NCBI RefSeq assembly: GCF_029338195.1
Contig: NZ_CP119781.1
Coordinates: 124,001-188,000, forward strand
Source: Haloarcula litorea
GTDB taxonomy: Archaea > Halobacteriota > Halobacteria > Halobacteriales > Haloarculaceae
Reading direction: 5' to 3'
DNA: 64,000 bases
A program made the position numbers and the translations under genes. Positions 7,191 through 64,000 of the stretch are shown here, piece after piece. The notes below the pieces were generated by a model. That model searched no databases. It saw nothing but the letters and a program-made list of their open reading frames with translations, and was not told the DNA's origin. Position 1 is the first letter of the stretch; each line of letters starts with the position of its first letter.

Positions 7191-7397
7191 TGCCGGACCG
7201 GCCCAGACCCCGCCGCCCCACCCTCCGCTCCGTGCTCGCTTCGCTGCGCGCGCAGCCACGACCGGTCATTGAACGAAAACGAAGTGATGTAGTCTACCTT
7301 TTTAGTGCGAATATCGAAAAAGGGACTTTGAAGCCGGTACCGTATTCTAACCCAAATTAATTACTCCGGAGGACCTCCGAGGCGATTACACCAAGGT

Positions 7398-8237: not shown

Positions 8238-8769
8238 CCCTGTCGAGGAAGGCGAAACTGTCGAATTTCATCCGGAAGGAGTTGCTCTGTTCACGCCGAA
8301 TAGTTCGTGCTATGGGATGTCGCTTTCCGAGATCGTGAATGAGGTACAACCACACGTTACCAATTACGGAGATAGTGTGATTCTTGAGCCTCATGCTGGG
8401 TGTCTCTCTCAAGCTATTGAAGGAGGAATTGATGACCACCGTCTTCTATACGAGAACAGCATCTGGCTGATCGACTGTGACTGTGTAGTTGAACAAGACT
8501 TATTCTCGGACTTCAAGTACCTCATACGCACGTTTCCGTGGGAAGGGAATGTCATAATCTGGGTGGACTCTCAGATTCACGATTTAACCGATGCCGATGA
8601 GACCGAACTTGAGACCTTCTCAACTAAGCCAGACATTGTCTATAGTGAGCAACGCCTACTCACTAAGGTTGAAGACTACTTGGAGTACAGCGCTAACCCC
8701 ACCTTTGGCTGTGGGAGCATCATCGAGTGGAGGAATGAAGTTCATCGAATCCAGAACAGCCTAGGATAA
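8215..8769 (+). CDS. unknown protein of SMC-linked operon
   Basis: A 184-residue protein starting at the ATG at 8215 (MANRATIDPV), overlapping the upstream gene by 23 nt. An earlier in-frame ATG at 8179 would add 12 unlikely residues. It has two hydrophobic strand-like stretches (GDSVILEPHAG; NSIWLIDCDCVVEQDLF, later GNVIIWVDSQ), suggesting an alpha/beta fold with Asp-rich strand ends. The IWLIDCDC and VIIWVDSQ pattern is reminiscent of nucleotide-binding or PIN/Toprim-like folds, but no diagnostic motif could be confirmed. Cysteines at four positions do not form a zinc pattern. It is coupled to the next gene (stop TAA 8767-8769 overlaps ATG 8769). Confidence 0.65.
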   Translation: MANRATIDPVEEGETVEFHPEGVALFTPNSSCYGMSLSEIVNEVQPHVTNYGDSVILEPHAGCLSQAIEGGIDDHRLLYENSIWLIDCDCVVEQDLFSDFKYLIRTFPWEGNVIIWVDSQIHDLTDADETELETFSTKPDIVYSEQRLLTKVEDYLEYSANPTFGCGSIIEWRNEVHRIQNSLG

Positions 8770-9692
8770 TGTCACGAAACTGGAGAGCCCCCGAACGAGT
8801 GGGCGAGCAACTCGGTCTCTCAGGCGACGATCTCTCCAGCTTCTTGTCCATTATTCGCGAGGTCCATCAGGAGCAACGAAACGCAGACTCATATGATCTC
8901 AGCAATGATTATTTTGAGTTTCTCAACAGCGAGGTCTTCTCTCATCATCGTGTGGTCGGATATCTTCAAGAAAAAGATATTGCGGAAGAGACGATAGCCA
9001 CGTTTCGGGAGGGCGCCGTTGATATTGAAGGTGCGTTCGACTCCTCGTATAAACTCAAGTACAGGCTTGACCAGATCGTGGACTTCGTACTTCTCATTAA
9101 ATTGGTTCGGGATTACCTCGATTACACGGGGAACGACAGTCTGGAGCCAAGCAACCGTCTTCATTATTTGGTGTACCTCACGAACAACGAGCTAAAGGAA
9201 ACACCAGTCCATTCCGCCCGCCACCAACGGACAGACCTTGGCTCGTTGGAGTTCACGGGTTATCGGTACACATTCCGCAAAAAAGAGGACGGACTACACT
9301 CGACACGGCTCTCTCGTGACAAGGACAGGCTACTAGCTTGGACGTTGTTTGAACAAAAAGTGAGCAATGAGTACGACCCAAATCAGTACACGCCATTCGA
9401 ACTCCAGTTGGGGAGTTCTGGGGAGATGATTACAATGAGGTATAATTCAAAATTCGATGGGCTGAGGAAGGCAGAGAGTGACCTACTTCGAGAATGGGTC
9501 ATCAGTCAAAGAGACATCATAGAGCGTTTCGGGGATATGCCAATCGATGAACTAAAAGACCATGTCACAAGCATTAATGAGTTTTCTACGACCCCGAATG
9601 GTCGCGTGCTACTGACTGGACGTCCTCGGTTCTTCGATCCTGAAGAGGGGGATATACTCAGTACTATTGCAGGGGGGATGCAAATTGCCTGA
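8769..9692 (+). CDS. unknown 307-residue protein of SMC-linked operon
   Basis: A 307-residue, largely helical, charged protein with no recognised motif. The N-terminal region (1-130) is helical with a short hydrophobic segment (DQIVDFVLLIKLVRDYL). The C-terminal third contains a possible winged-helix or kleisin-like end (MPIDELKDHVTSINEF...GRVLLTGRPRFF). In SMC-type complexes the gene just upstream of the ATPase often encodes the non-SMC bridging subunit, and the position here fits that role. It overlaps the ATPase gene by 8 to 26 nt depending on the start chosen downstream. The DNA is AT-rich like the rest of the cassette. Confidence 0.65.
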   Translation: MSRNWRAPERVGEQLGLSGDDLSSFLSIIREVHQEQRNADSYDLSNDYFEFLNSEVFSHHRVVGYLQEKDIAEETIATFREGAVDIEGAFDSSYKLKYRLDQIVDFVLLIKLVRDYLDYTGNDSLEPSNRLHYLVYLTNNELKETPVHSARHQRTDLGSLEFTGYRYTFRKKEDGLHSTRLSRDKDRLLAWTLFEQKVSNEYDPNQYTPFELQLGSSGEMITMRYNSKFDGLRKAESDLLREWVISQRDIIERFGDMPIDELKDHVTSINEFSTTPNGRVLLTGRPRFFDPEEGDILSTIAGGMQIA

Positions 9693-11838
9693 ATTGAATC
9701 CTATTGAAGAAATTGAGTCCCGTCTTGAGGATGAAGAATCACTGGACGAGGAGCAGGTAGACGAGTTTCTGGACTTTGTCTCCGAACACTACTCTGAACT
9801 CTCATACGGACCGAGATCGGTGAAGCTGCGAAGTTTGTCAGCCCAATCATTCCAGAACATTTCAAGCAGATCTGTCTATTTCGGTGGAGAGAGTAAAATC
9901 ATCCATGGGTTGAATTCGCAAGGGAAGACTAGTTTCATAAATGCGATACAGTTCAACCTCCTTGGACTCCCAGATGACAAGCAGGCCCACCGAATGACGG
10001 AGTTGATTCGAGATGGGGCCGACGAATTGTATACGCGCGGAGAGTGGGTTACCAACACCTCGTCATTCCTGATAGACAGGAGCATGACGAGGCGAGGTCG
10101 AGGCGGGGGGCTGTATGACTATGATGAGCCTACTATCACAGAAACGTCGGGGGAAGATGTAGTTCCTCCTGAAGAGCGTGATGTTCCTCAGGATAGACAT
10201 AACCAGCCGAGTGAGGTTTTCGAGCGAATAGGCATCTTGCCGTTCGTGAACCGAGGATACGAAGTCTATGAATTGATGTCACTGTATTTCCTGATGCCAC
10301 ACGACTTCCTCCACTTCCTCAATTGGTCGAAAGCACCTGAAGTGATTGACATCAGTTTCGGAATCTATCTTACAAACGTACTAAATGCAATCGAGAATTG
10401 GCGGGAACAGGAAGCCGATATCTCTAATGAAATGGCGGAGGCCCCGAGCCAAATTGAGCAATTGGAACATGAGTTAGAAGACGCTCGGGAGAGACTAACT
10501 ACGTTTCAGCGTCAGAGAGAACAGCTGGAGAATCAAATAGCAAGCAAGACCGAACGTCTTGAATCGCTCAAACAAGGCTCAAATGCCGAAGAGCGGCTGA
10601 ACGAACTGCGGTCACGTATTGGCGTCTTACAGTCTAAACGTGCCGACTTGAAGACGCAGCGGGCAGAAAAAGTCTCGGAGCTGGGGGAAACTGAGCGTAA
10701 GATCCAGCGATACGAAGACTCCGAGCTGATTGACGATATCGGAGATATCGGTGAAGAACTTCGCTCACTGATGACTGTACCAGACCGATGCCCTGTCTGT
10801 ACGAATACAGTGGACGGTACGCAGCGTGAGCGCCTTCTGCGAGACCAGCAATGCCCTCTTTGCGATAAGGATGTTGATGATGAACTCATTCGTGTCGAAA
10901 AGGAGCATCAACCAGACGGTTCAGTATTCGACAGACGAGAAGAGCAGCGTGAGGAACTGGAGGAGTTAGAGGCACAGAGAGACGATCTTGAATACGAGAT
11001 TGAGCAGCTAGAACAGCAGATCCAATCCACAGAAGAAGAAATTGAGGAGGTGAGGGAAGATATTGAGGAGCAGGACTTCGAGGACGTGATTCAGCAAAGA
11101 GAGACACTAGAGCAAGAAATCCGAGATCTCCGCGAAGAAGCGGCTAGTACCGAGGTTGATATCGAATCAACTGAGAATGACATAGAACGACTGGAATACG
11201 AACTCCGTGCCAACCACCATCTAGCCGACCTCTTGGAAGAGCGTAGAGAATTGGACGAAGCGCTGGAAACGTTACACGGCATCGTGTATAGAGTGAGGAA
11301 AGACCAGCGAAGGGAACTCAAAGCAAGGCTCCGTGAGGAGATGGAAGAAGAGATTCTGCCTAAGTTTGAGCGTGGGACTTTCGCCGAAGCGAGGGGCGTC
11401 ACCTTTGATTCAGAAAACAACTTCCATTTCACGCTTCACTCTCCGGAACAACAGTTCAAATCTAATAGAGCAGAGCGTGAAACTGCTGAAGCAACGCTCC
11501 ACTCATTACTCTTCCACTCGGCGGTACTGAACCTTCTCACAGAAGAGTCGAATGCACCGGCGATTCGGATGCTGACAATTGATTCTCCCATGACGAATGA
11601 CATGGATGAGAACAATCGCCACGACGTGACTAACCTGCTTACGAGCCTCCCCGAATATCTGGACGAGTACCAGATAATCATATCTATGGCCGAGTCGGAT
11701 TCGTCCCTCATGAGAAGGCTCGAACAGAGCCGCATCTCAATGAAGGAGTTCAGCAAAGCGGGGGAAGGCGACCGTGAGGAATCCGAGAGTATGGGAAGTG
11801 ATGAAGAGAATTCTGCGGGCAGTGGGGTGGCTACCTAA
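9667..11838 (+). CDS. SMC/Rad50-like ATPase with zinc hook
   Basis: 723 residues from a TTG at 9667. An alternative TTG at 9685 has a G-rich stretch (9672-9677) at ribosome-binding distance. The Walker A GLNSQGKTS is at residues 81-89, and a coiled coil covers about 255-365. Two CxxC motifs (CPVC 375-378, CPLC 396-399) form a zinc-hook-like turn, and a second coiled coil covers about 420-560. The Walker B region, MLTIDSPM, is around 635-642. The residue after the Walker B Asp is Ser rather than Glu, as in several defence-associated Rad50-like ATPases, so hydrolysis may be altered. The ABC signature is not canonical. It probably senses DNA ends or invading DNA and drives the membrane and unknown partners upstream. 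The organisation recalls Lamassu- or Wadjet-like loci but does not match them by gene content. Confidence 0.8.
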   Translation: MQGGCKLPELNPIEEIESRLEDEESLDEEQVDEFLDFVSEHYSELSYGPRSVKLRSLSAQSFQNISSRSVYFGGESKIIHGLNSQGKTSFINAIQFNLLGLPDDKQAHRMTELIRDGADELYTRGEWVTNTSSFLIDRSMTRRGRGGGLYDYDEPTITETSGEDVVPPEERDVPQDRHNQPSEVFERIGILPFVNRGYEVYELMSLYFLMPHDFLHFLNWSKAPEVIDISFGIYLTNVLNAIENWREQEADISNEMAEAPSQIEQLEHELEDARERLTTFQRQREQLENQIASKTERLESLKQGSNAEERLNELRSRIGVLQSKRADLKTQRAEKVSELGETERKIQRYEDSELIDDIGDIGEELRSLMTVPDRCPVCTNTVDGTQRERLLRDQQCPLCDKDVDDELIRVEKEHQPDGSVFDRREEQREELEELEAQRDDLEYEIEQLEQQIQSTEEEIEEVREDIEEQDFEDVIQQRETLEQEIRDLREEAASTEVDIESTENDIERLEYELRANHHLADLLEERRELDEALETLHGIVYRVRKDQRRELKARLREEMEEEILPKFERGTFAEARGVTFDSENNFHFTLHSPEQQFKSNRAERETAEATLHSLLFHSAVLNLLTEESNAPAIRMLTIDSPMTNDMDENNRHDVTNLLTSLPEYLDEYQIIISMAESDSSLMRRLEQSRISMKEFSKAGEGDREESESMGSDEENSAGSGVAT

Positions 11839-11998
11839 TATTCAAGATACGGATGTGTCGGTAAAGTGTCTCTAAGACTGCAAAAGACGAAGCGAAGATG
11901 GCCTGAATGATTCGATAAGTGAACTGCGCGACGACGAACATAAAGTAAAGTGTAGTAATCGCTGTGCCTGGATGATCTAGTTCACACACTCGACTAGC
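11839..11998. other. AT-rich intergenic tail of the SMC cassette
   Basis: About 160 nt without a gene. The composition remains AT-rich to about 11995, then switches to the GC-rich leader of the TFB gene. The right border of the inserted cassette is therefore near 11.99 kb. No inverted terminal repeat was seen. Confidence 0.4.
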
Positions 11999-11999
11999 G

Positions 12000-12027
12000 T
12001 TTATTGCCCCCTCAATGGGTGAGGGGC
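12000..12027 (+). promoter_or_regulatory. covarying leader hairpin, copy 3
   Basis: TTTATT is followed by GCCCC (12006-12010) pairing with GGGGC (12023-12027) around the 12-nt loop CTCAATGGGTGA. The TFB start is 39 nt downstream. Confidence 0.7.
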
Positions 12028-14474: not shown

Positions 14475-15371
14475 ATGAACGGTCGTTACTCCGACTTTGA
14501 GGAACTACGGCCGACCGGCGAGGCGTCCCACATTCCGGACACGAGGCTGGACGACGGCTGTGAGGGTGCCCCCCGGCGGCAACGCGTCGCGACGAGCTCT
14601 GGTGGCTACCCCGATGCGCCGACGGTAACCGACGGCGAGTGCCGGTCCTGTGGGGCGTCAGTCCCAGACGGCCAGACGAAATGCCGGTTCTGTCTCTCTA
14701 ACCATCTCGGAAGTGACGCCACTAGCACGAACGAGGCAGCGTCGACGACGTGCCTCGGCATCGTCCACCTGGTCGTCGAGTCGACCACGTTCTACGGCGC
14801 CGTGGCGAAGGGCGGCGCGGCGGCGAACCTCCTCTCCGCTAACGAGGCGGAGCCGGCCGTCGACGACTATACGCTCATCTACGATCTCGACGAGGCGCCG
14901 GCGCGCCAGCTGGCCGAGCAATGGCCCTCACTCCCCGACGCGGTACAGGTGTCGTCAGCGGAGGGAGAGCGGCTTCTCAGTGCCGCCCGTGACCGGACTG
15001 GGTGGCACGGGCAGGAAGCGCCGGAGCGTCAGGAGCAGGCCACGACGCGGCTCTACGACCAGCGTGGGGACGGCATCCGCGACGCGTCGCGTCTCGACGC
15101 GGTCCTCGACGACGCCGTCGACGCGGTGTGGCTGGTTCCAGCGATAGCGCTGACCGAATCCGCCGGCGAAGCTGGGGCTGATCGGCAGGCGTCGTCGGTA
15201 CCGACGTCGCAGGAACTCGACTGTGAAACCTGTGGACGGGGGACCGACCATCGGTTCAAGACCCGCGAGTCGGTCCCGGATGCGGCGTGGACGGGCCAAC
15301 CGATCTGGGAGTGCCGGGTGTGTGGCTCGGGTCGCTACGGGCCGAGTCCATCGACGCACCGTTCGTCTTAA
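14475..15371 (+). CDS. zinc-ribbon protein of plasmid orphan block
   Basis: A 298-residue protein with two zinc-binding regions. CRSCGASVPDGQTKCRFC lies at about residues 56-73, and a C-terminal CETC...CRVC pair at about 250-283. Between them is an alpha/beta-looking domain (CLGIVHLVVESTTFYGAVAKGG; DYTLIYDLDEAPARQL; AVDAVWLVPAIALTES). The function is unknown, and no catalytic motif stands out. Unlike its neighbours it lacks a recognisable leader hairpin, perhaps because of the TnpB element just upstream. Its stop codon overlaps the left arm of inverted-repeat copy 2. Confidence 0.65.
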   Translation: MNGRYSDFEELRPTGEASHIPDTRLDDGCEGAPRRQRVATSSGGYPDAPTVTDGECRSCGASVPDGQTKCRFCLSNHLGSDATSTNEAASTTCLGIVHLVVESTTFYGAVAKGGAAANLLSANEAEPAVDDYTLIYDLDEAPARQLAEQWPSLPDAVQVSSAEGERLLSAARDRTGWHGQEAPERQEQATTRLYDQRGDGIRDASRLDAVLDDAVDAVWLVPAIALTESAGEAGADRQASSVPTSQELDCETCGRGTDHRFKTRESVPDAAWTGQPIWECRVCGSGRYGPSPSTHRSS

Positions 15372-15408
15372 CCAACAAAATGGCTATATGATTCTCAATG
15401 TTGGTTAA
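15368..15408. repeat. TTAACCAACA inverted repeat, copy 2
   Basis: TTAACCAACA (15368-15377) and TGTTGGTTAA (15399-15408) have a 21-nt spacer. The left arm overlaps the stop codon of the upstream zinc-ribbon gene. Confidence 0.85.
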
Positions 15409-15826: not shown

Positions 15827-17089
15827 ATGGACGACACGCTACGACGTACGGTACGAATCAAACTCGACGTACCCAGAGAACATCGTGGCGATCTCCATCA
15901 GACCAAGACTCAATTCCTCCACTGCGCTAACCGAACGAGCGAGTGGGCGTGGCGGTACGACGACGACTGTATCACCAGCAAGAGCAGGGCCGAAGAGGCC
16001 CTGTATGACGAGTTGAGGGAGGAAACCGAGCTCACCGCTAACCTCGTTCAGAAAGGTATTCGTCGCGCTATCACAGCCGTCAGGGCCGGCGTCGAGAAAT
16101 TGACGCAGGGCAAGAAGACCAGCCAACCAAAGTTCGACTCGTGGAGCATCGTGTACGACAAACGCTCCGCGACGTTCAACGACGACCACGCTACCCTCTC
16201 GACGCCGAACGGAAGAGTCACCGCCGAATACGTTCTCCCACCTGAAAATCAGCGAGAGAACACGCCGTTCGGACGGTACTACGAGAGTGACAACTGGAAT
16301 ACGTCAAGTGCCACGCTCCAATATGACGAGAACGAGGACACGTTCTACCTGCAAGTTACGCTGAAAAATCCCGATTATGGGAGTGACGGACCGGAACGCC
16401 AAGAAAGCGAGTCATGTGATGATCTCCCCGAGAACGGAGTGGTTCTCGGCGTGGACTTGAACGTGACTGGCGCGTTCGTCGTCACCTCCACAGGCGAGTT
16501 CATTGGCAGTGCAGACTTCCTCACCCACAAGCGCGACCAATACGAGCAACGCCGCGGCTGCCTACAACAGACGGGTACTCGATCGGCCCACCTCACGATT
16601 CAATCTATTGGTAGTCAGTTCAGCGAGTGGTCATTAAACTGGCTCCACAACCAGGCCAACGACCTCATCGAGGAAGCCGGTGATGCGGATGTAGACGGGA
16701 TTATTTTCGAGGACCTCACTCACATCCGCGAGAACATTGCGAACGGGAGCAAGTTCCAGCAGTGGGCCTACGCGAAGTTCGTGGAACTCGTTGAGTACAA
16801 GGTCGAATCTACTGATTTGTTCGTCGATTTCGTGAACCCAGCGTACACGAGCCAACGTTGCTCATATTGTGGGTGTACCCACGAGGATAATCGCGACGAC
16901 AAGCAGTTCGAGTGCCGGTCATGTGGGTATGAGGTGAACGCTGATTACAACGCGGCGAAGAACATTGCAAACCGATACTGCAAGTATATCCATCGCGGGC
17001 AGAAGTCTCGCGGTGGATGGGCCACCAGTCAACTGGCCCTGAAGTCAGGGATGCTGAACGTGAATGGTGAATACACGCCTTCCGCCTAG
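15827..17089 (+). CDS. tnpB: TnpB (IS200/IS605-type OrfB), second copy
   Basis: A 420-residue protein. The RuvC residues are D210 in VVLGVDLNVTG, E295 in IIFEDLTHIR and the Asp of [11 protein letters not shown]. The zinc ribbon is CSYC...CRSC. It is clearly a different lineage from the copy at 13.1 kb (sequence identity looks low outside the motifs). No TnpA is adjacent. A GC hairpin at about 17119-17139, TCTCTGGG pairing with CCCGGAGA, lies just after the stop and is likely the right-end/guide-RNA structure. The element splits a hairpin-led orphan gene. The catalytic residues are intact, so it is possibly functional as an RNA-guided nuclease. Confidence 0.9.
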   Translation: MDDTLRRTVRIKLDVPREHRGDLHQTKTQFLHCANRTSEWAWRYDDDCITSKSRAEEALYDELREETELTANLVQKGIRRAITAVRAGVEKLTQGKKTSQPKFDSWSIVYDKRSATFNDDHATLSTPNGRVTAEYVLPPENQRENTPFGRYYESDNWNTSSATLQYDENEDTFYLQVTLKNPDYGSDGPERQESESCDDLPENGVVLGVDLNVTGAFVVTSTGEFIGSADFLTHKRDQYEQRRGCLQQTGTRSAHLTIQSIGSQFSEWSLNWLHNQANDLIEEAGDADVDGIIFEDLTHIRENIANGSKFQQWAYAKFVELVEYKVESTDLFVDFVNPAYTSQRCSYCGCTHEDNRDDKQFECRSCGYEVNADYNAAKNIANRYCKYIHRGQKSRGGWATSQLALKSGMLNVNGEYTPSA

Positions 17090-22585: not shown

Positions 22586-22626
22586 TTAACCAACAATCCA
22601 GAGTTGTATCACTAATTGTTGGTTAA
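22586..22626. repeat. TTAACCAACA inverted repeat, copy 3
   Basis: TTAACCAACA (22586-22595) and TGTTGGTTAA (22617-22626) have a 21-nt spacer. It is followed 16 nt later by the T-run of leader copy 12. Confidence 0.85.
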
Positions 22627-22699: not shown

Positions 22700-23702
22700 A
22701 TGTCCCTTGATCTGAGTGCAACTTCCAACACGGCAAGTGAAATCTCTGCCGCCAGACAAGCCGACGTCGTGGCCTTCCTCCATCGAGCGCCGTTCACCCC
22801 TGGATGCCTATAAGGTCGGATTCCTACCCGGGTTCCGAGAGGACTGTGGATACCAGCAGACCCAGTATCAGGACCTGAATATCCCCGTCGGAATGCTCGA
22901 CAACGACTTCCGGAACCCCGATCTGGATCGATTCGTCGATCGGTTCTTCGAGTACGAACCTCAGGTCGGTGTCATCGGGGACGTCGACGAAATCGACGAC
23001 GTCGACGCCCACGTCGCTGCTGCTCGTGAGATCCAAGCGAGCTATCCAGAGGCCGAGCTCATCGTCGTTCCGAAGTCCCAAGCAGTAATCGACGCGATTC
23101 CCGAGACCCTCGTCCTCGGGTATTCACGGGGATACGCCGACCGCCTGGCCCACGAGTTCTCCGACCCTGCCGATTGGAGAGGGCGGCGCGTCCACATCCT
23201 CGGCGGGAGTCCGCCCAAACAGCTCGATGCCATTCGACAGCTGACCAGACCGACACTCACGGACGAGCCACCAGCCGACATCGTCGGCGTCGACTGGAAC
23301 GGGCTGCATCGCGGCGCGCAGTTCGGTGAGTTCTGGACGGCCGACGGCTGGGACGCCAGCGGTCGCGACGCCGACCACGTCACTGTCCGAAAGACGGTGC
23401 GCCACAGCCTCGCTCGCGTCCGTGAGTTTTGGAGGACCCACGGAATCTGGCCCGAAACGACACCGCGAGACGAGGGGCTCGACGTCGAGTACGAGGGCCC
23501 GAGTCCTGCCGATCTGGAGGACGCCGCCTGTACCGAGTGCGGGACGAACGTCTGGCGAACTCGCCGCGGCCCGTACGTCGCCGAGTACGATACCGGCGCA
23601 ATCTGTGGATACTGCAGTTACGAGTGCTACTTCAACCACCGTCACCGGAACAACCTGGAGGAGATCGTCGGCGAGCAGAGCGTCTACCTCCCGCCGACGT
23701 GA
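22700..23702 (+). pseudogene. queuine/archaeosine tRNA-ribosyltransferase-like protein (DUF6610-like), frameshifted
   Basis: The ATG at 22700, 29 nt behind its leader hairpin, starts MSLDLSATSNTASEISAARQ and runs to ADVVAFLHRAPFTP, then hits a stop at 22811. The frame shifted by one base continues from about 22802 as DAYKVGFLPGFREDC to the stop at 23702, so one extra base near 22799-22804 splits the gene. The body has TIM-barrel-like strands (VGVIGDVDEIDD, AELIVVPKS, VHILGGSPPKQ, ADIVGVDWNG), reminiscent of Tgt/DpdA enzymes that act on deazaguanines in tRNA or DNA. A C-terminal zinc motif, CTEC...CGYCSYEC, follows. A GTG at 22716 in the second frame is an alternative start but gives unconvincing N-terminal residues. 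Confidence 0.62.
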
Positions 23703-25151: not shown

Positions 25152-25193
25152 TTAACCAACAGATAGCTACGATTCCGCCTTTTTGTTGGTTAA
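25152..25193. repeat. TTAACCAACA inverted repeat, copy 4
   Basis: TTAACCAACA (25152-25161) and TGTTGGTTAA (25184-25193) have a 22-nt spacer. It lies directly after the ArdC gene, at the left border of the sulfur island; no plus-strand gene follows. Confidence 0.85.
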
Positions 25194-53299: not shown

Positions 53300-53341
53300 T
53301 TAACCAACACCTCTGCGTTTGAGGGGGAGTATGTTGGTTAA
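53300..53341. repeat. TTAACCAACA inverted repeat, copy 5
   Basis: TTAACCAACA (53300-53309) and TGTTGGTTAA (53332-53341) have a 22-nt spacer. The right arm abuts the T-run of leader copy 15. It marks the right border of the sulfur/signalling island. Confidence 0.85.
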
Positions 53342-55985: not shown

Positions 55986-56789
55986 CTACTCCACGGGACG
56001 GACTGTGTCGCCATCCCGACGGACCCGGTCGAACGTTGAGAGATACGCGATCCGGTCGTGAACCTCCTCGTCATCCAGCTCCAGTTCCGCGGCCAGTTCG
56101 TCGACGGTCATCGGTTCATCGAGTGCCTGGAGGACTTCGAGCCCCCGGTAGTACCTATTCGTGAGCTCTTGGACGCGGCCCTCGATCGGCGTGGTCACTC
56201 CGTACCGCTCCTCGAGTTCGACCAGGGCCTCGTTCGCGAACGTGGCGAACTGATCGTCACCCAGGCGTTCGATCTGGGCTTCGAGTTCATCCCGGACGAC
56301 GTCGTAATTGAGGCCGGCCTGCACGAGCATATTCATGTCCTCGATGTCGTCGTCGCGGCCTGCGATCGCCTTGAACAGGAAGATATCCTCGTTGCTGACT
56401 AGCCGGACCGTCAGTCGATCCGTGTCGAGGAACGGCTCGCTGCGCTCTTGCATGCTGTCGGTGAGCACGAGCTTGTTCGCGACCTGCTGGTTGAAGATGT
56501 CGAGGCGACACCCATCGTCGTTCTCGACGCAGCTCGTCGCCCCCAGCGCCCGGTAATCTGGGTCCAGCGATTGGACCTCCGCGTACCCGAGGTCCATCAG
56601 GACGGCCCACAGCTGACCGTACGCGTCGCCATCCGGGACGACTAGGTCGATGTCTTTCGTCGCCCCCTTGAGGTCGCGCAGCGACATCGCGCCACCACCG
56701 ATCAGGTAGACCGTGAGCGGTTCAGATAACCCATCCCCGATTCGCTGGAATTCGTTCTCGATGTACTCGCGTCCGAATGTTGGTCTCAT
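55986..56789 (-). CDS. DUF6036-like nucleotidyltransferase
   Basis: A 267-residue protein. VYLIGGGAMSLRDLKGATKDIDLVV (about residues 27-51) is the GG-[AS]-x(n)-D-[IL]-D-[LV] signature of minimal nucleotidyltransferases, with DID as the metal ligands. A second acidic residue lies in RLDIFNQQV. The C-terminal part has a winged-helix-like tail (MTVDELAAELELDDEEVHDRIAYL). Related enzymes act as toxins in AbiE-like and MNT/HEPN systems. The start overlaps the upstream HTH gene by 4 nt. It forms a two-gene module that may be toxin-antitoxin or a defence pair. Confidence 0.8.
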   Translation of the reverse strand: MRPTFGREYIENEFQRIGDGLSEPLTVYLIGGGAMSLRDLKGATKDIDLVVPDGDAYGQLWAVLMDLGYAEVQSLDPDYRALGATSCVENDDGCRLDIFNQQVANKLVLTDSMQERSEPFLDTDRLTVRLVSNEDIFLFKAIAGRDDDIEDMNMLVQAGLNYDVVRDELEAQIERLGDDQFATFANEALVELEERYGVTTPIEGRVQELTNRYYRGLEVLQALDEPMTVDELAAELELDDEEVHDRIAYLSTFDRVRRDGDTVRPVE

Positions 56790-57712
56790 TGTGGTAGTGG
56801 CACCTCGTAGTCAGCCGCCAGTTTCTGAAACTCGTCCCACTCCGGGAGCCGGTCATCGTCGACCTCGCCGTGCGTCTCGAGGTAGCGGAGCAAGGCGTCG
56901 ATTTCGGCTTCAAGGCCATACTTCGCCGCCTGCTCTCGGAGGGCCGCCTCGTCGACGTCGACGTGACTGAGCAGGAGGAGACAGTACGAGCGGTGACGGC
57001 TGCCGTCGTCGATCAGCAGCGTGTGACAACACAGCTCCGCCGGCGAAACTGCGTCAAGTTCCTCGGAGTAGACGTAGTAGCGGTGGCCGGTGAGCAGGAA
57101 CTGGAGGTCGAAGGCCGCGAATCGAGCGAGGCCGGTTTCGTGGAACCCCTCTGCGTCGATCTCCGTCTCGGCCTGGGCAAGGAATTCGTCGTAGTCCTCC
57201 CAGAGAATCGTGCCCTTCGGGGCAACGGCTTCGAGGCGCTGGCGATGTAGATGGTGTACGAGTTCACGGGCGAACTCGTGGAGACGGTCGAAGTCGGCGT
57301 TGAACTCGTAGTGGCCGTCGGCCGTCCCGACGAGCCCACGGTCGCGAAACCGCTTGAGGACCCGGTTGACCGTGTTGCGGTAGTTGTCGCTCCGGTCGGC
57401 GATCTCGGAGACGGTTCGCGGCTGGTCGAGGTAGTACAGCACTTCGAGTGTCTTCCCGGTCAGCAGCTCGGGGAAGTCGATATGGGAGTGCTGGCGGACG
57501 AGGTCGCGGTAGAGTTCGACGGCGCGAGCATCCGACGGAACGACTCGTTTTCGCCGCCCGTCGCGTTCCGTGTAGACGAGCCCCTTCTCGACGAGGTCAC
57601 CGACGGCGCGAGAGAGGTAACTCTCGCTGTGGTCGAGCTTCGTCGCGAGGTCGGAGATCGTGTCGCCGCGGTCGACTGTGGCGAGGACCTCGAGTTCGAT
57701 GCGCCGGAGCAC
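56786..57712 (-). CDS. MarR-like two-HTH regulator paired with nucleotidyltransferase
   Basis: A 308-residue protein with two winged helices. One at the N-terminus reads VLATVDRGDTISDLATKLDHSESYLSRAVGDLVEKGLVYTERDGRRKRVV. A second at about 85-140 reads LEVLYYLDQPRTVSEIADRSDNYRNTVNRVLKRFRDRGLV. The C-terminal half is a larger mixed domain (FDLQFLLTGHRYYVYSEEL). It lies upstream of, and overlaps, the nucleotidyltransferase gene, as AbiEi-type antitoxins do, and probably represses the operon. It is divergent from the small orphan gene at 57.85 kb with inverted-repeat copy 6 between them. Confidence 0.78.
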   Translation of the reverse strand: MLRRIELEVLATVDRGDTISDLATKLDHSESYLSRAVGDLVEKGLVYTERDGRRKRVVPSDARAVELYRDLVRQHSHIDFPELLTGKTLEVLYYLDQPRTVSEIADRSDNYRNTVNRVLKRFRDRGLVGTADGHYEFNADFDRLHEFARELVHHLHRQRLEAVAPKGTILWEDYDEFLAQAETEIDAEGFHETGLARFAAFDLQFLLTGHRYYVYSEELDAVSPAELCCHTLLIDDGSRHRSYCLLLLSHVDVDEAALREQAAKYGLEAEIDALLRYLETHGEVDDDRLPEWDEFQKLAADYEVPLPQ

Positions 57713-57795: not shown

Positions 57796-57836
57796 TTAAC
57801 CAACAAAGCTATGGATTCCCGGGACGTGTTGGTTAA
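57796..57836. repeat. TTAACCAACA inverted repeat, copy 6
   Basis: TTAACCAACA (57796-57805) and TGTTGGTTAA (57827-57836) have a 21-nt spacer. It is the only copy in a divergent promoter region and lies 15 nt before an ATG. Confidence 0.85.
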
Positions 57837-57850: not shown

Positions 57851-58174
57851 ATGTCCTACGAACCCCCGACCCCACCGGCGAACCTCCCGACGGAGATCGT
57901 CAACACGCTCAACGAGTCAGACCCGGAGCAGCTCCGAGACGTTGCGACGTACGCTGAAGCCCTCGCCGAGCACAAGGAACGGAAAACTCGGCTCGAAGAA
58001 GAATCAGACGACGCCGACATCGAGGACCGTCCCGATGATCTCCCGGACGACGTCCCGACGAAGGCGACAATCACGATCAAGGAGATCAATGATAACCGGT
58101 ACTACTACTGGCAGTGGAGGGAAGTAGACAAAATCAAATCCAAGTATAAGGGGCCAGTCAATCCCGACGAGTAG
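57851..58174 (+). CDS. small haloarchaeal protein next to origin
   Basis: A 107-residue protein, MSYEPPTPPANLPTEIVNTLN. A helical middle (PEQLRDVATYAEALAEHKERKTRLEEE) is followed by an acidic loop and a C-terminal ATITIKEINDNRYYYWQWREVDKIKSKYKGPVNP rich in aromatics and lysines, probably binding nucleic acid. Proteins of this kind are widespread in haloarchaeal plasmids; the function is unknown. It lies 15 nt behind inverted-repeat copy 6 and immediately before the first ORB, so it belongs to the origin region. Confidence 0.68.
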   Translation: MSYEPPTPPANLPTEIVNTLNESDPEQLRDVATYAEALAEHKERKTRLEEESDDADIEDRPDDLPDDVPTKATITIKEINDNRYYYWQWREVDKIKSKYKGPVNPDE

Positions 58175-58205: not shown

Positions 58206-58432
58206 CCCCCCGTGTGCGAGATGAATTGGCAGAAGGCATCGAGTCGGCACCCTCCGTGTGCAAGATGAATTGACTCTCATCGACGGACGCCCCGTGTGAG
58301 AGATGAATCGAATGATAGATCGCGGTGGACGACACCCCGTGTGCGAAGTGAAATCTTGCGTACCCTTGTCAGACAGTTCTAGTAAAATTGACTACTATTC
58401 CGTCGGAGCCACACCCCGTGTGCGAAATGAAT
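58206..58432 (+). repeat. ORB-like repeats, left cluster (five copies)
   Basis: Copies of CCCCGTGTGCGAGATGAA-like sequence lie at about 58206-58225, 58251-58270, 58290-58308, 58334-58353 and 58413-58432, all in the same orientation, on the 3' side of the Orc1/Cdc6 gene. Spacing is 40-45 nt, then 80. The G/C-rich block plus TGNGAGATGAA matches the origin-recognition-box style of haloarchaeal Orc/Cdc6 replicons. Confidence 0.85.
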
Positions 58433-58460
58433 CCGACGCCGGCGTCGAGGACTCTTCGAG

Positions 58461-59807
58461 TTAGTTACCCTCGAAGAAATCCTCTATCTGCGCGTTGACA
58501 ACGGACCGGATCAAATCTTCGTCGTGTTCCACTTCTTCGAGCCGAATATCGGCTTGAAGCGTCTCAGCGACTACTTCTGGGTCGTCGACAAAGGTGTACT
58601 CCTTGTGGACACCACTTCCGTAGCCTCGTCCTCGTTTCTCCGATGTGACGAAGTTGTAGGTCTCGGCCTCACTCATATATCGTAGGTAGGAGTCTCGTGA
58701 CTTCTCGTCGGAATCGAGGAGATCGGTGAGATACTGATATACGCGGTATGCAACCGTGCTAGGAACAGCGTTCAGGTTTCGTTTGGAGTGGACTGGGACG
58801 ATTGCAGTAGCGTACAGCGAGAGCTTCTTTTGCGTCGAGAGCCCCTGCATCTGGGTTAACGTCCGATCGCGTTCGGCTTCTTCCTGGGCGTCGCGAACGT
58901 GCTCTTCACGAATCGTGTCTTCGCCGGCTCGGTCCGCTATCTCACCGGCTTTCCTGAACAGATCAATTGCCTTGCGCGCATCACCGTGGTCTTGGGCGGC
59001 GAACGCGGCACTGAGGGGAATGATGCCGTCCTCTAGAACATCGTCTTGGTATGCATCACGACGTCGCTCGAGAATCGACTGCAACTGGTTCGCGTCGTAG
59101 TCGGGGAAGACAACATCCTGCGGATTGAATGAACTCTCGGCCCGACCGTCCAGATCTTCCATAAACCGGGGATCGTTCGTGAGCGCAGCGACGGAAACGT
59201 GCCCCTCGATGCGACCGAGCTGTGACGCTCGCGACAGCTGGTAGAGCAGTTTCGAATACGCCGGCTCATCGTTCGGATCTCGCTGCCGACCGACTAGAAG
59301 ATCGACCTCGTCGAGGATGATGATGACCGAGTCGAAATTGTTGCTCAGAATTTCGTAGAATCGATTCAGCTTCTGATCCGTCGAGATACCGCTCTGCGGT
59401 ATGCCGACATCGACGCCGGCTTCGTGCGCTGCATTTTTCGCCAAGCGATAGACAGCGCGGTCGTGCGATTTGATTGTCTGGCAGTTGATTTTGATGACGC
59501 CGAACCGGTCCCCTTGTGAGTTCGCGAGTTCAAGAACCTGCTGACAGACTGCGTTAATGATGAGCGATTTCCCAGTGCCCGACGGCCCGTAGAGAAGCAT
59601 ATTGGGCGGTCGGTTTCCTTGCAACGCCGGCCGAAGATAGGTGATGATGTCGTCCAGCTGGTCATCGCGACCGACAATCCGGTCCTCGTCGATGACAGCG
59701 TCGGGATCGAGCAACCCCTTATCCTGAAAAACAGAATTCTGAACGCCCTCCTGAAGACGGCCTTTGATAGATTGTGAGAGGGATTGTTGATCGTCGCCGT
59801 CAGCCAT
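58461..59807 (-). CDS. orc1/cdc6: Orc1/Cdc6 replication initiator
   Basis: A 448-residue AAA+ protein with Walker A GPSGTGKS (74-81), Walker B VIIILDEVDLL (about 161-171), sensor-1 region VAALTNDPRF, and an arginine/sensor-2 region with GDARKAIDLFRKAGEIA. The C-terminal winged helix (LDSDEKSRDSYLRYMSEAETYNFVTSEKRGRGYGSGVHKEYTFV) would touch the ORB repeats. It binds the repeats on both sides of its own gene and recruits the replicative helicase. The promoter lies in an AT-rich stretch at 59822-59845. A plasmid-specific initiator fits its unusual ORB sequence. Confidence 0.95.
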   Translation of the reverse strand: MADGDDQQSLSQSIKGRLQEGVQNSVFQDKGLLDPDAVIDEDRIVGRDDQLDDIITYLRPALQGNRPPNMLLYGPSGTGKSLIINAVCQQVLELANSQGDRFGVIKINCQTIKSHDRAVYRLAKNAAHEAGVDVGIPQSGISTDQKLNRFYEILSNNFDSVIIILDEVDLLVGRQRDPNDEPAYSKLLYQLSRASQLGRIEGHVSVAALTNDPRFMEDLDGRAESSFNPQDVVFPDYDANQLQSILERRRDAYQDDVLEDGIIPLSAAFAAQDHGDARKAIDLFRKAGEIADRAGEDTIREEHVRDAQEEAERDRTLTQMQGLSTQKKLSLYATAIVPVHSKRNLNAVPSTVAYRVYQYLTDLLDSDEKSRDSYLRYMSEAETYNFVTSEKRGRGYGSGVHKEYTFVDDPEVVAETLQADIRLEEVEHDEDLIRSVVNAQIEDFFEGN

Positions 59808-59819
59808 GTTTGCGGATTA

Positions 59820-59845
59820 GGTCGAGACTATAAATAAATATGGGT
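59820..59845. other. AT-rich stretch at the initiator promoter, candidate unwinding element
   Basis: ACTATAAATAAATATG is the most AT-rich run next to the ORBs and sits between the initiator start and the right ORB cluster. It probably serves as the cdc6 TATA region and may also serve as the melting site. Confidence 0.5.
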
Positions 59846-60153
59846 ACCGTGTGCGAGGTTAAATCAGCTGTATTCAGCCGATAGAGGCAGTTTCAAAGAG
59901 GGTGTGCGGTTAAGACCATGAACCGCGGGCGAAATCAATTGCTCGAAGAGACCCTCCGTGTGCGAAGTGAAATCAGGTACACGTCGAGGATAGCGACCGC
60001 CGTTTCGTCAGAGAAAGCAAGCGTCGATGGGCCTACCCCCCGTGTGCGAGATGAAACACTGGACGGAATTATGAGTCGAATGAGATCGACGAGGTCGGTG
60101 GGAGGCGGGACACTCACGGTAACCCGCCCCCACACCCCGTGTGCGAGATGAAT
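59846..60153 (+). repeat. ORB-like repeats, right cluster (four copies)
   Basis: Copies lie at about 59846-59865 (degenerate), 59952-59973, 60036-60056 and 60134-60153, in the same orientation as the left cluster. A further weak match (GGTGTGCGGTTAAG) is near 59900. Together with the left cluster they frame the initiator gene. Confidence 0.82.
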
Positions 60154-60480
60154 TTATCGAAGGGGTGTGGCCGGAGTAGCGCTGGCGATCACCCAATATC
60201 GGAGAGATAAGCCACGATCAGCCGAGATAACGGAGGAACAGGCCAGTAGACGTTCCGAATAACTCGCCGAAGAACACGGTCTTGTCACGAAACATACTGT
60301 TTCGTTTCGACCGACCTTAGGGCTACTACGGTTCCGATTGACAGAGTGGCTATGTAAAGGTTTCCCTGAAACATAGTCCTTCGTCAGTTGTGCCTTCTCG
60401 TCTTCTCTATCCCGTAAAATCGGTTAATACGGTACTTTCGACGCAGCTCTCCGTGATTACCCCCTCCCACCGTTCTCCGG
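60154..60480. other. non-coding origin flank
   Basis: About 330 nt with no gene. It is AT-richer than the surroundings and contains a 19-bp palindrome (60287-60305). It lies between the right ORB cluster and the reversed ORB, the expected place for origin melting. Confidence 0.5.
60287..60305. repeat. palindrome ACGAAACA-TAC-TGTTTCGT
   Basis: A perfect 8-bp inverted repeat with a 3-nt centre in the non-coding origin flank. It could be a binding site for a replication or partition regulator. Confidence 0.6.
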
Positions 60481-60481
60481 A

Positions 60482-60503
60482 TTTCATATCGCACACGGGG
60501 TGT
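60482..60503 (-). repeat. ORB-like repeat in reverse orientation
   Basis: Reads CACCCCGTGTGCGATATGAAA on the minus strand. It is the only ORB copy facing the opposite way, a common feature at the far edge of haloarchaeal origins where inverted ORBs flank the unwinding element. Confidence 0.78.
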
Positions 60504-60531: not shown

Positions 60532-60572
60532 TTAACCAACGTTCTCCGGCCAATCGCCTTTATGTTGGTTAA
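60532..60572. repeat. TTAACCAACA inverted repeat, copy 7
   Basis: TTAACCAACG (60532-60541, one mismatch) and TGTTGGTTAA (60563-60572) have a 21-nt spacer. The right arm overlaps the stop codon of the polymerase gene, so it lies at a 3' end, not at a promoter. Confidence 0.8.
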
Positions 60573-62734
60573 TTCTTTTTCGACTCCGTGAACGTTGTCA
60601 GCTCTGGCACCCGTGTCTCCGAGAGCGCCCGACGAATGTCTGACCGGGTCCAGTCTAATGGTGAGAGAACGCTCTCGACAGCTCTGATGAGTTCCGTCTC
60701 GTAGTGGTCCGGATCGTACATCTCGACTTCCTCGTGAGCCAATGCGACCCGCTCTCGCGAGGTCTTCCCATCGTCAACGACGACGTACTCGATGTCCTGT
60801 CCCGGATGGATGGCGAGGTTCTGGTCACGAGCGCGCTTCAGCGCCGCCACGTTCTGCGTGTTTTGGGTGTAGCCTTCGAGTGGTTTGGATACACGATTCC
60901 GTTCGACGAGCTGCTCAATCGGGACCTGACCAGCGTGTAGCTGGTCGATTGCATCCTGAAGACGTCCGAGCACCGCGTCCGGTGACCGAGTCGCATCGAA
61001 TCGATTGAGGCACTCTCGCTGAACTCTTTCGATGAAGGGTGGCGTTGAGCGCTGCCGCGCTTCGATCCCTCTCAGTTTGAACTCGTCGTCGCCGGCGACC
61101 TTCCCGAAGTACTTCGTCAACGCGCCGGCGTCGCTCTCGCGCTGCGGGACGAACGCCACCCAGTCGTAGTGGGCTTCGTGTTCGAGCCGAATCTCGACGC
61201 GTTCCGTGATCTCCGTTGCGAGGGTCTGGAGGTCCTCGCGGTCCTCGTCGTCGACGTCGGGATTCGGCGTCACCCAGATGGAGTCGACGATGCCGTGGAC
61301 GACGCGCCAGCCCCCGGTTTCCAGCCGCTGTTTCGCCGTCAGCAGAATCTCCCGAGCGAACGCGTTGATCGCCTCGTGGCACTCGATACGGCCGAACTTC
61401 GCGTTGCTGAACCCCTGATAGCCGAAGCAGGCGACGAGGATCCACTTCAGCGCTCCCGACCGTCCCTCGAGTTCCGCCAGCCGGTCCTCGTCGGGGTCGT
61501 CCCGTTCCTTCTCGCGACGGATGGCCGCCTTGATCTCGTCGCGAGCGTCGATGATCGGCTGTAGCACGTCGACGAGGTAGCCCCGGTCGTCGCAGATCGA
61601 GTACCCGAGGCCAGGGACGTCGTCGCGGCCGCTGTGGCAGTCACACCGGATGACGTCCGGCGAGACGTTCCGGGTACAGATGATGTTCGGATACAACGAG
61701 GAGAAGTCGAGTTCGTGGACGTTCTCGTGGAGGCCGACCTCGGGCGCGAAGATGAAGCCGCCGCGGTCGGCGTCGTGGAGCGTCCCCATCGGCTTGTAGA
61801 ACTCGTGGCGCCAGGAGTTCCACGGGACGAGGACGCCGCGGTCGTGGGCCTCACAGATCTGAATCGCCGTAAGGACGTTCCCGATTGACGCCCACGCGAG
61901 TTCCTGGACGGGCTTTTTCGAGCGCGACACGAGGTCGAGGACGCCGTCGAGGTTCGTTTCCCCGTAGAAGAACGTGTTCGACTCGTCGATGATCGCCCGG
62001 CCGGGCACGTTGTACCGTGCCGGCGAGTGACCGACGCGGCCGTAGCTCGAATACGTCGACCGGCTCGCGAGCTGCTGGTAGTCGACGCCCGGCCACCGAC
62101 TCAGCGAGAAGTCGTCGACGCCGGCGTCGGTCGCCATCTCGTACAGGGTCGGGACGATCTCGCTCGTTGAGATGACCAGGACATCCGGATTGTGAGCTTC
62201 GAGCGCCCCCTGGACGGCGGTCAGGATATCCGTCGGCGAGCCGGAGACGGCGTCGCCGGCGACGGACAGTTCCCCATAGATGTCGTTGCTCGTTTCGGTC
62301 ACCGGAACGCTGAGCCGGAGCGTCGACAGCTCGCTCGCCGGCGTCGGATCGGCGCCGGTCTCCAGACAGTACCGGAACTCTCGCGAAAAGTCCACGTTGA
62401 AACAGGCGAGATCCCCGACTGGATAGGCCGACAGCTGGCGCGCCTGCCGGGCGAGTGGAGTGACGCGATCGATGTGGGCAACGTCGACTGCGAGAACGGC
62501 CTCCTCGTCTCGTCGAAAGCCGGGGCGTCGCGCCACCAGTTCGGTCGCGACGACATCCGGGTGCTGGTCGTACACCGATTGGAGCGTCGTGAGGTCGATG
62601 TCGGTCTCGGAATCGCGAGCGGCGACGTAGAAACGCAGGGTATACTTGTCTCGTTCTGTTACGACGGCACCGTTGGTGGTCGCCTCCCACTCCAGGACGC
62701 GGCCGTCGTCCAGGAAGTCGATTGTGAACGGCAT
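60569..62734 (-). CDS. polB: family B DNA polymerase with altered catalytic motif C
   Basis: 721 residues from the ATG at 62734 (MPFTIDFLDDG). It has motif A ELDFSSLYPNII (D343), motif B-like KWILVACFGYQGFSNAKFG (about 430-448) and motif C HGIVDSIWV (480-488). In normal B polymerases motif C is YGDTDS; here the first Asp is Ile and only D484 remains, so polymerisation may be impaired. The exonuclease I motif (FDIE) is not visible in the N-terminal domain (TLRLSVPVTETSN occupies that place). A CDCHSGRDDVPGLGYSICDD insertion follows motif A. It resembles the second, plasmid-type PolB of haloarchaea. The gene converges on the origin, and its stop overlaps inverted-repeat copy 7. Confidence 0.88.
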   Translation of the reverse strand: MPFTIDFLDDGRVLEWEATTNGAVVTERDKYTLRFYVAARDSETDIDLTTLQSVYDQHPDVVATELVARRPGFRRDEEAVLAVDVAHIDRVTPLARQARQLSAYPVGDLACFNVDFSREFRYCLETGADPTPASELSTLRLSVPVTETSNDIYGELSVAGDAVSGSPTDILTAVQGALEAHNPDVLVISTSEIVPTLYEMATDAGVDDFSLSRWPGVDYQQLASRSTYSSYGRVGHSPARYNVPGRAIIDESNTFFYGETNLDGVLDLVSRSKKPVQELAWASIGNVLTAIQICEAHDRGVLVPWNSWRHEFYKPMGTLHDADRGGFIFAPEVGLHENVHELDFSSLYPNIICTRNVSPDVIRCDCHSGRDDVPGLGYSICDDRGYLVDVLQPIIDARDEIKAAIRREKERDDPDEDRLAELEGRSGALKWILVACFGYQGFSNAKFGRIECHEAINAFAREILLTAKQRLETGGWRVVHGIVDSIWVTPNPDVDDEDREDLQTLATEITERVEIRLEHEAHYDWVAFVPQRESDAGALTKYFGKVAGDDEFKLRGIEARQRSTPPFIERVQRECLNRFDATRSPDAVLGRLQDAIDQLHAGQVPIEQLVERNRVSKPLEGYTQNTQNVAALKRARDQNLAIHPGQDIEYVVVDDGKTSRERVALAHEEVEMYDPDHYETELIRAVESVLSPLDWTRSDIRRALSETRVPELTTFTESKKN

Positions 62735-62929
62735 TCCTGTAGAACAAATAGGTGGTATTCCGGATAACCGATGGCGTGTCACTTCCGGATTTCAGAGAAC
62801 GATGTTCTCTCTCGCAACCATCTCGGTCACGGCGACGACGGATGCTGGTCGTACACCGACTGGAGGATCGTAAGGTCGAGGTCGGCCTCTGGGGCGTGAG
62901 GGAAGACGTAGAAGCGTGGGGTGTATTGA
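62735..62929 (-). pseudogene. remnant of a second polB 5' region
   Basis: On the minus strand, about 62925 to 62834 reads YTPRFYVFPHAPEADLDLTI and LQSVYDQHP, then after a frameshift SVVAVTEMVARENIVL. This matches residues about 31-70 of the intact polymerase (YTLRFYVAARDSETDIDLTT, LQSVYDQHPDVVATELVARR). It is a diverged fragment of another polB gene whose remainder was removed where the TnpB element ends at about 62928. Confidence 0.75.
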
Positions 62930-62976: not shown

Positions 62977-64000
62977 CTATACCGTCCCCACGGAGGCAAA
63001 TTTCCCGTCGCCGGTACTCCGGTCTGTGCGCTCCTCGTTGGGACTGGCCCTCTCGGGAGAGCATGGTGACTCCGACCAAGTGTGGTCGTCCCACGTGAGG
63101 CGCACGGGCCGTGCCATCGACCCTGTCTCGAGTTCAGTGCCAGTCTCCCGTTCAAGAAACGTCCGTGAGGCGTCGAGATCAGCGTGGCTCTCGTGTCCAC
63201 ACGAACACCGAAACACGTCGCCATACCGCTCTGTCTCCACCTGCTCGCCACACTCGACACAGGTTGCCGTCGTGAACGCCTCTGACCGCTCTTCGACAAA
63301 GATTCCGTACTCCTCGGCAGTGTCTTTGAGACGGTCGACAAACGAGCGGTGTGCCCAGAACTGGTGGGTCTTCTCGTTGACTTCTGGGTGCCAGTGTGTC
63401 GAGAGCACGTCAGTGAGGTCGCCCACATACACCGTTGCTACGCCCTCATCATACAGCCGTTCGATCAGGTCACGACAGAGTGCTTCCTGCGCGTGGTCAC
63501 GGCGACGCGTTCGCTTACGGTACAGTCGGCGAATCCGCTGACTGCTGTACCGACCCTCGCGGAGTTTAGATTGTAGACGGGCGATCTCTTCGGTCGTCTC
63601 ACGGAAGTCAGCGAACAACTCGCGACCCTCGTAGAGGAACCGTTTGCCGGTCGTCGTCGTACAGGCGACGAAGTTGTTTGCGCCCACGTCCAAAGCAGCC
63701 GATTCGTCGGCTAGTGGTGAATCCCGTTGCGAATCTGGTACTGTGACGGGCTGAAAGGCTCTGAACGTGTCGCTCACTTCGTCGTACTGTATTTCCAACT
63801 GCCCTTTCTCGCCGTCCCACTTCGGGCTCCCAACAAGTTGCAGACGGAGTCGCTCGTAGTATCCGAGTCCGTACTTCTCTTTCAAGTCTTGCCCTACGGG
63901 GATCTCGACTCGACTCCGCTCGCCGAACTCAAGCGTGTACTGGTCGTTCCGGATAAACGTTCGCAGCTCACGTCCAGCGTCTTCGCTACCCCAGTAACCG
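62977..64000 (-). CDS. tnpB: TnpB (IS200/IS605-type OrfB), 5' end cut by window edge
   Basis: The frame is open to base 64000 without a start, so the N-terminus lies outside. The visible part has RuvC D in [16 protein letters not shown] replaced by D in [14 protein letters not shown], a zinc ribbon CVECGEQV...[18 protein letters not shown], and the last Asp in ADLDASR. The second catalytic Glu is therefore not obvious (GDLTD instead of FEDL), which may mean reduced or absent nuclease activity. The sequence is different from the other two copies. It has a short C-terminal tail and the hairpin right end at 62936. Confidence 0.85.

Follow-up and report, generated by a model that had tools for sequence, protein, structure and literature searches.

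The 64-kb stretch of Haloarcula litorea DNA analyzed here (the window, positions 124001-188000 of the 200,553-base contig C3) contains an orc1/cdc6 initiator gene surrounded by ten origin recognition boxes (ORBs). This origin lies within a longer array, in which a palindrome, a small open reading frame (ORF) of 107 aa, a first group of ORBs, orc, a second group of ORBs and another copy of the palindrome follow one another (Table 1). The origin is one part of the larger module formed by this array, and it is likely, from the sequence evidence presented below, that the 107-aa protein is a palindrome-binding autorepressor which also controls further plasmid genes. The origin had been described in an initial annotation; the two bracketing palindromes sit just outside the coordinates given there and were not listed.

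Besides C3, the genome comprises the chromosome (contig C1, 3.30 Mb) and a co-resident plasmid (contig C2, 284 kb). The head of C3 (1-49269) repeats its tail (151265-200553, in the window from position 27265 on) over 49.3 kb at 99.8% identity. A true duplication was rejected, a repeat of this length and identity being better read as an assembly overlap. In the simplest reading, C3 would be the uncircularised assembly of a circular plasmid of 151,284 bp. The head copy of orc has an open frame of just 197 aa, around Cdc6_C. Palindrome copies in the redundant end of C3 were counted once.

Table 1. Features of the origin module, its neighbors and the dispersed palindromes (window coordinates)
Feature	Position	Strand	Remarks
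Dispersed palindrome copy	3212-3253	.	
Dispersed palindrome copy	15368-15408	.	
Dispersed palindrome copy	22586-22626	.	upstream of DUF6610 gene (22716-23702)
Dispersed palindrome copy	25152-25193	.	between two convergent ORFs
Dispersed palindrome copy	53300-53341	.	upstream of SWIM-like gene
Winged-helix protein (HVO_2833-like C-terminus)	56786-57712	-	divergent from small ORF across palindrome
Palindrome TTAACCAAC-N23-GTTGGTTAA, left module edge	57796-57836	.	right arm ends 14 nt before small ORF
Small ORF, 107 aa, no known family	57851-58174	+	proposed palindrome-binding regulator
ORB 1	58208-58225	+	0 mismatches
ORB 2	58252-58269	+	2 mismatches
ORB 3	58290-58307	+	1 mismatch
ORB 4	58335-58352	+	2 mismatches
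ORB 5	58414-58431	+	1 mismatch; ORBs 1-5 are arrayed beyond the orc 3' end
orc1/cdc6 initiator gene	58461-59807	-	448 aa
ORB 6, degenerate	59845-59862	+	4 mismatches; adjoins TATA-like stretch (~59828-59842) before orc
ORB-like conserved element	59918-59941	+	alignment of 15 sequences; between ORBs 6 and 7
ORB 7	59954-59971	+	3 mismatches
ORB 8	60038-60055	+	0 mismatches
ORB 9	60135-60152	+	0 mismatches
Mildly AT-rich stretch between facing ORBs 9 and 10	60153-60482	.	candidate unwinding region
ORB 10, inverted	60483-60500	-	1 mismatch
Palindrome TTAACCAAC-N23-GTTGGTTAA, right module edge	60532-60572	.	at polB 3' end
Family B DNA polymerase (polB)	60569-62782	-	adjoins module

The orc1/cdc6 origin

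The product of the initiator gene matches TIGR02928 (E 3.2e-116) as well as AAA, Cdc6_lid and Cdc6_C, all above cut-off, and, at 448 aa, exceeds 300 aa; the identity proposed in the initial annotation is confirmed by these matches. With up to 3 mismatches, the ORB consensus CCCCGTGTGCGAGATGAA has nine matches in the window, every one within 58208-60500, where a mean of 0.03 is expected by chance and none of 100 shuffles reaches nine. ORB 6 was recovered as a member of the repeat family. The ten repeats announced around the gene, nine in one direction and one inverted at the far edge, are thus all present, and the palindrome reported within the origin is a perfect one (CGACGCCGGCGTCG, 58434-58447). 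The CCCC end of the ORB corresponds to a G-string on the opposite strand. Outside C3, the 16-base ORB core (up to 2 mismatches) gave 13 matches in the genome, all at exactly 2 mismatches; the reversed-pattern control gave 7 in the whole genome. As for the conserved element between ORBs 6 and 7, its best 18 bases (59921-59938) match the ORB consensus at 12 of 18 positions and its GAAATGAA variant at 13 of 18. This element has no G-string, and many of its columns are invariant across the 15 sequences aligned.

The layout was followed in the best 80 of the 183 loci obtained by searching with the two Orc proteins aligned; 41 of these relatives have an orc at least 80% identical and 39 one about 50% identical. 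ORBs lie on either side of orc in 40 of the 41, the exception (L094) being cut by a contig end. In 35 of them the sole inverted ORB is the first ORB within 1250 nt upstream of orc; among the six exceptions, L075 and L077 have one more ORB outside, L085 has two inverted ones, and L078, L086 and L094 have none. No inverted ORB was found downstream of orc in any of the 41. The usual positions are about -700 (inverted), -356, -249, -165 and -56 before orc, and +33, +112, +157, +197 and +240 behind it. An alignment of the upstream region (the window and 14 palindrome-bearing loci, three further loci being excluded from the count) shows the ORBs, the TATA-like stretch beside ORB 6 and the conserved element. 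The sequence gives good support to an origin of replication that depends on Orc1/Cdc6, belongs to a known haloarchaeal kind and lies on a circular plasmid of about 151 kb; its ten-ORB arrangement, kept in the orc clade, adds to the known class a clear layout conserved between species.

Passages of Wu et al. 2012 (PMC3528665) describe haloarchaeal orc/cdc6 origins with G-string ORBs in intergenic regions, an ORB sequence specific to each family, and ORBs on both sides of several genes, ten of which are named as examples. The flanking of the gene by ORBs, to which the initial annotation gave weight, is thus present but not special; what differs in the window is the set of ten ORBs, nine of them in one direction. 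According to passages of Wu et al. 2013 (PMC3936714), origins of Haloarcula hispanica depend on their own cdc6, and oriC2 is kept in check by the ORB-rich region behind cdc6E (oriC2D), probably through titration; plasmids with oriC2 were reported to be incompatible with the wild type. The five ORBs at 58208-58431, behind the initiator gene, resemble the arrangement of oriC2-cdc6E with oriC2D; oriC2 is, however, a main-chromosome origin (PMC3936714), and the two are likened by layout, not by initiator orthology.

That negatively acting region, together with a predicted origin described in PMC3528665 as not proven functional, might suggest that the ORB cluster is an initiator-titrating or relic locus devoid of an active origin. 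Such a possibility also draws on the AT-rich stretch, which is present as claimed but weak: the 330 nt between the facing ORBs 9 and 10 contain 48.8% AT versus 39.6% in the window, and the most AT-rich 50-nt windows (64% AT) lie elsewhere, at 59825 and 58350, beside orc. A titrating or relic locus is nevertheless very improbable, as orc is full-length, the upstream ORBs face each other, the layout is conserved in 41 relatives, and the two Cdc6_C matches on C3, among six genome-wide, are copies of one gene; a second Cdc6-like gene is also found on the plasmid, outside the window. This second gene (L035:10371-11399, about window coordinates 71371-72399) adjoins an SRAP (SOS-response peptidase) gene, and a palindrome lies about 178 nt upstream of it. 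On pJ7-1 (L182), a Cdc6/Cdc18 gene also adjoins an SOS-response peptidase gene.

The plasmid C2 carries the same module with a different ORB sequence and an Orc 51-52% identical. This second ORB type, CCCCTCTATCGATGTGTT (up to 4 mismatches), is present in at least 3 copies in 21 of the 39 loci with an Orc about 50% identical, the remaining 18 fitting neither ORB sequence well. It is plausible, as proposed in the initial annotation, that an incompatibility type is set by the ORB sequence, and the different ORB sequence on the co-resident C2 fits this idea. The window's ORB type is, however, common to orc loci of many genera and would thus mark a broad group, not one plasmid. At L116, L123, L125, L128, L130, L131, L134, L139, L140 and L144, the ORBs match neither type, yet the small ORF and the palindrome found in the window (the first palindrome below) are present, so that ORB and palindrome types seem free to combine.

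A conserved palindrome brackets the origin

The palindrome TTAACCAAC-N23/24-GTTGGTTAA has seven exact copies in the window (0.00 expected by chance). Ten are found on the circle and two on C2, one on either side of orc, and none on the 3.3-Mb C1; the origin is bracketed on both plasmids. In a survey of 292 genomes of the class Halobacteria, representing 77 genera, it was detected in 200 genomes and 60 genera, which led to the rejection of strain oddities as an explanation; the reversed control matches a single genome (G111). In 1.59 Mb comprising the plasmid and 79 orc loci (L135 was dropped from the 80, its listed surroundings repeating L134), 105 copies have exact arms and 5, 6 and 6 have 1, 2 and 3 mismatches, the reversed-arm control giving 0. 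The gap is mostly 23 (n=57) or 24 (n=41), and rarely 21, 22 or 25. When gaps of 0-60 were allowed, 104 of 108 exact arm pairs had a gap of 22-25.

The arms can pair as RNA (-10.5 kcal/mol, two sequences folded), as would be expected if the repeat were an RNA hairpin, or a short mobile-element relic, and no protein site. The nearly fixed gap of 22-25 and the nearly invariant arms make such a reading extremely improbable. A nearly fixed gap combined with little conserved sequence in the gap and flanks, outside the small-ORF sites, is more in keeping with a dimeric protein bound to DNA than with a loop or an insert.

According to crude in-house gene calls, in which about 74% of the DNA is coding, the 105 sites are distributed as 3 inside genes, 46 tandem, 42 divergent, 10 convergent and 4 at edges. 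The divergent class is inflated by the 32 sites that belong to the small ORF, which is often divergent from a winged-helix gene. The other genes behind the sites are orc (21, mostly 664-751 nt away), winged-helix (17), SWIM-like (10, at 50-53 nt), DUF6610-like (4, at 70-111 nt), polB (4) and many singles. The distances from site to gene start recur within a gene family, being mostly 10-17, 50-53 and 81-85 nt. The gene that follows the copy at 53300-53341, which we take to resemble SWIM zinc-finger proteins, matched nothing in Pfam and NCBIfam. In the orc clade, a count by eye that leaves out the divergent subfamily described below gave 13 of 22 small-ORF-positive loci with enough flank that have an upstream palindrome between -689 and -778.

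Sites that are dispersed, plasmid-specific in this genome, placed around the origin on both plasmids and located outside genes in 102 of 105 cases (same gene calls) could also be those of a plasmid centromere, that is, a partition site for which the 107-aa protein would be the adaptor, gene regulation being secondary. In bacteria, some global regulators of plasmids, such as KorB of RK2, also act in partition. A centromere is nonetheless unlikely, because the sites lie mainly upstream of gene starts, at distances repeated within gene families, and the only AAA_31 (ParA-type) match on the plasmid (C3:75932-76444) has no palindrome closer than about 30 kb.

The small protein and the palindrome occur together

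The 107-aa protein has no significant match in Pfam, NCBIfam, PHROGs or the PDB sequences. In particular, no ParB-family domain was recognized in it: no Pfam family falls below E 0.07 and the best NCBIfam match, at E 0.031, is far under the cut-off. Within its YYYWQWR stretch, Y, W, Q, W and R are invariant in 33 sequences. The protein was found in 198 of 72,556 plasmid records; the 60 matches listed are all haloarchaeal and are named hypothetical protein, unless the record, or that part of it, is unannotated. In a set of 50,697 phage records it occurs in just two, both of the archaeal phage ChaoS9 (50% identical). In ChaoS9, an exact palindrome (L180:4916-4959) stops one base short of the annotated start of the gene, and parA and an integrase gene are nearby.

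Of the 79 matches to the small ORF, 67 have a palindrome (at most 1 mismatch) directly upstream, in most cases with its end 14 nt from the start codon. As 31 of the 79 come from the 30 best loci of the protein search and C2, a better measure is given by the orc-drawn loci, with 36 of 48, a count that includes both L134 and L135, repeats of each other. In the 292 genomes, with the protein scored at E <= 1e-25, both elements are present in 160, the palindrome only in 40, the protein only in one (G114) and neither in 91; this cut was picked after seeing the two-peaked E-values, and at 1e-5 the same table reads 182, 18, 34 and 58. The mean number of palindromes per genome is 9.9 with the protein and 0.66 without it, and all 117 genomes with at least 6 palindromes have the protein.

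Two neighbors were also considered as binders. The Orc protein was rejected because nine loci with an orc 85-88% identical (L096, L097, L099-L103, L106 and L107) have neither palindrome nor small ORF in their flanks, which extend up to 10 kb and are shorter in L097. A winged-helix gene is often the divergent neighbor of the site, in the 17 cases counted above, so that the palindrome might be read by another conserved factor, this protein or a host one, the small ORF being merely one target. This is decidedly unlikely. The winged-helix gene adds no palindrome prediction once the small ORF is known: 11 genomes with this gene and no small ORF have a mean of 0.55 palindromes versus 0.68 in 120 genomes with neither, and the winged-helix protein was rejected on this basis. 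In addition, different subfamilies of the small protein go with different arm sequences.

Covariation of the protein and its putative operator

All six divergent paralogues inspected (about 37-50% identical) have another palindrome directly upstream, TTACCCCAC-N21..23-GTGGGGTAA. This second palindrome was detected in 32 of the 292 genomes, in up to 12 copies (reversed control 0), and in each of the 21 genomes carrying the divergent protein at E <= 1e-40. Nine genomes have the divergent protein only; they contain 2-12 second-type copies, and 0, 0, 4, 0, 0, 2, 1, 0 and 0 copies of the first type. The exact second palindrome precedes the gene at 21 of 30 divergent-protein loci. It is also found upstream of an ArdC-like gene (L184) and a DUF6610 gene (L206), two examples in which operator switching at shared target genes is hinted. 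An inverted repeat is thus located at the small protein's own promoter and changes together with the protein. Arms that change in step with one protein, in a similar geometry, argue strongly that this protein reads the site, and the palindrome is very probably the binding site of the 107-aa protein.

Several observations weigh against this assignment, or against the module as proposed. In 40 of the 200 palindrome-bearing genomes (1-5 palindromes each) there is no strong copy of the protein, and in G114 the protein is present while the exact palindrome is absent. The first palindrome is missing from 12 of the 79 small-ORF matches, six of which have the second type instead, the other six being real misses or fragments (L074, L080, L114 at 4070, L117 at 11358, L132 and L133). 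L077 has a palindrome at -774 and no small ORF within the 21 kb examined. The plasmids share descent, so that Fisher p-values overstate independence. As to the second type, 11 of its 32 genomes lack the divergent protein at E <= 1e-40, and a remote relative (L104, 31% identical) has neither palindrome type. The nine other divergent-protein loci comprise three with other arms (L234, L237 and L242), three with a damaged or half copy (L222, L235 and L238), two with no palindrome (L241 and the 5'-truncated L236) and one, L240, a fragment whose neighbor is a first-type gene carrying the first palindrome. The arms are CTAACCAAC at L242; CTAACCCAC at L234, with one copy in its own genome and none in 7 others searched; and GTACCCCAC at L237, whose core TACCCCAC occurs four times in its genome. 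The right-hand palindrome of the window, 725 nt from orc, is no obvious operator, given the TATA-like box near the orc start. The structural model of the 107-aa protein (two N-terminal helices and a three-stranded antiparallel sheet) is moderate, with pLDDT 76 and pTM 0.42, and a fold search with it gave no Foldseek match at E <= 0.001 and none at Z >= 5, hence no clear structural relative. The weak AT-richness between ORBs 9 and 10 belongs with these points.

A proposed mechanism

The means by which haloarchaeal plasmids coordinate their backbone genes, their copy number and their compatibility are little known. From the module, its conservation, the co-occurrence and the operator covariation observed above, we infer DNA binding, a direction of regulation and possible effects on replication, as follows. 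Orc1 would bind the ORBs and open the DNA between the facing ORBs 9 and 10. Through ORB 6, beside the orc promoter, it may limit its own expression, and by analogy with oriC2D, ORBs 1-5 behind orc may titrate Orc1 and restrain initiation. The 107-aa protein most likely binds TTAACCAAC-N23/24-GTTGGTTAA as a dimer, with its helices, to judge from the model, serving for dimerisation and its sheet for DNA contact. The arms are about three helical turns (32-33 bp) apart, which would place both half-sites on the same face of the helix. As the site lies across the protein's own promoter, autorepression is suggested; further plasmid genes would probably be controlled, up or down, via the dispersed sites. 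In the least supported step, the copies bracketing the origin might insulate it from read-through, loop it, or put its control under the same protein.

A comparison can be made with the KorB/KorA regulators of RK2, which share the autoregulation proposed here and many dispersed operators over backbone genes. The present system differs in being archaeal, in having arms of 9-10 bp with a 22-25 nt gap, and in an operator type that varies by subfamily; no sequence relation or clear structural relation was found between the two. The arm-type DNA-binding domain of tyrosine integrases (PDB 3jtz, 3rmp), which also has a small beta-sheet, was retrieved at noise level (Foldseek E 2.1 and 1.5; Z 2.0 for 3jtz), and the present protein has no integrase catalytic domain. 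The ORB-flanked origin is already known in kind, and the bracketing palindrome with its small protein is the new part. Neither bracketing palindromes nor a small ORF are mentioned in section 7 and further passages of PMC3528665, and neither the palindrome (TTAACCAAC, GTTGGTTAA) nor the protein was found in searches of the main texts of open-licence PMC papers on archaea and haloarchaeal plasmids, judged by titles.

A broader and more tentative proposal can be built on these elements. A family of archaeal regulators of about 105-130 aa, predicted to have a three-stranded beta-sheet and lacking any recognised DNA-binding fold, would govern haloarchaeal plasmids through scattered palindromes. Their palindrome code (TTAACCAAC, TTACCCCAC, CTAACCAAC, CTAACCCAC) would have changed repeatedly in step with the protein. 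The bracketing copies might then restrain replication by looping or pairing origins. If this were true, the palindrome/protein pair would constitute a further compatibility code in addition to ORB/Orc. With the palindrome in 200 of 292 genomes and a very likely cognate protein, the coordination of backbone genes, copy number and compatibility becomes directly testable, and the proteins with different arms allow swap experiments.

Additional observations

On plasmid PHS2 of Halobacterium salinarum R1 (L181:16124-16243), the small ORF retains only the right palindrome arm, the left one being replaced by another sequence. The palindrome occurs in 60 viral-contig stretches (L248-L307), only one of which also contains a relative of the small protein, and a viral contig as long as ChaoS9 (55,145) bears three palindromes; viruses may borrow or mimic the plasmid operator. 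In the window, the GC content falls to 47-51% at 7001-12000, versus about 60% around, possibly marking a foreign insert, and TnpB/OrfB-like IS605 transposase genes of the plasmid lie at 15827-17089 and 62977-63885.

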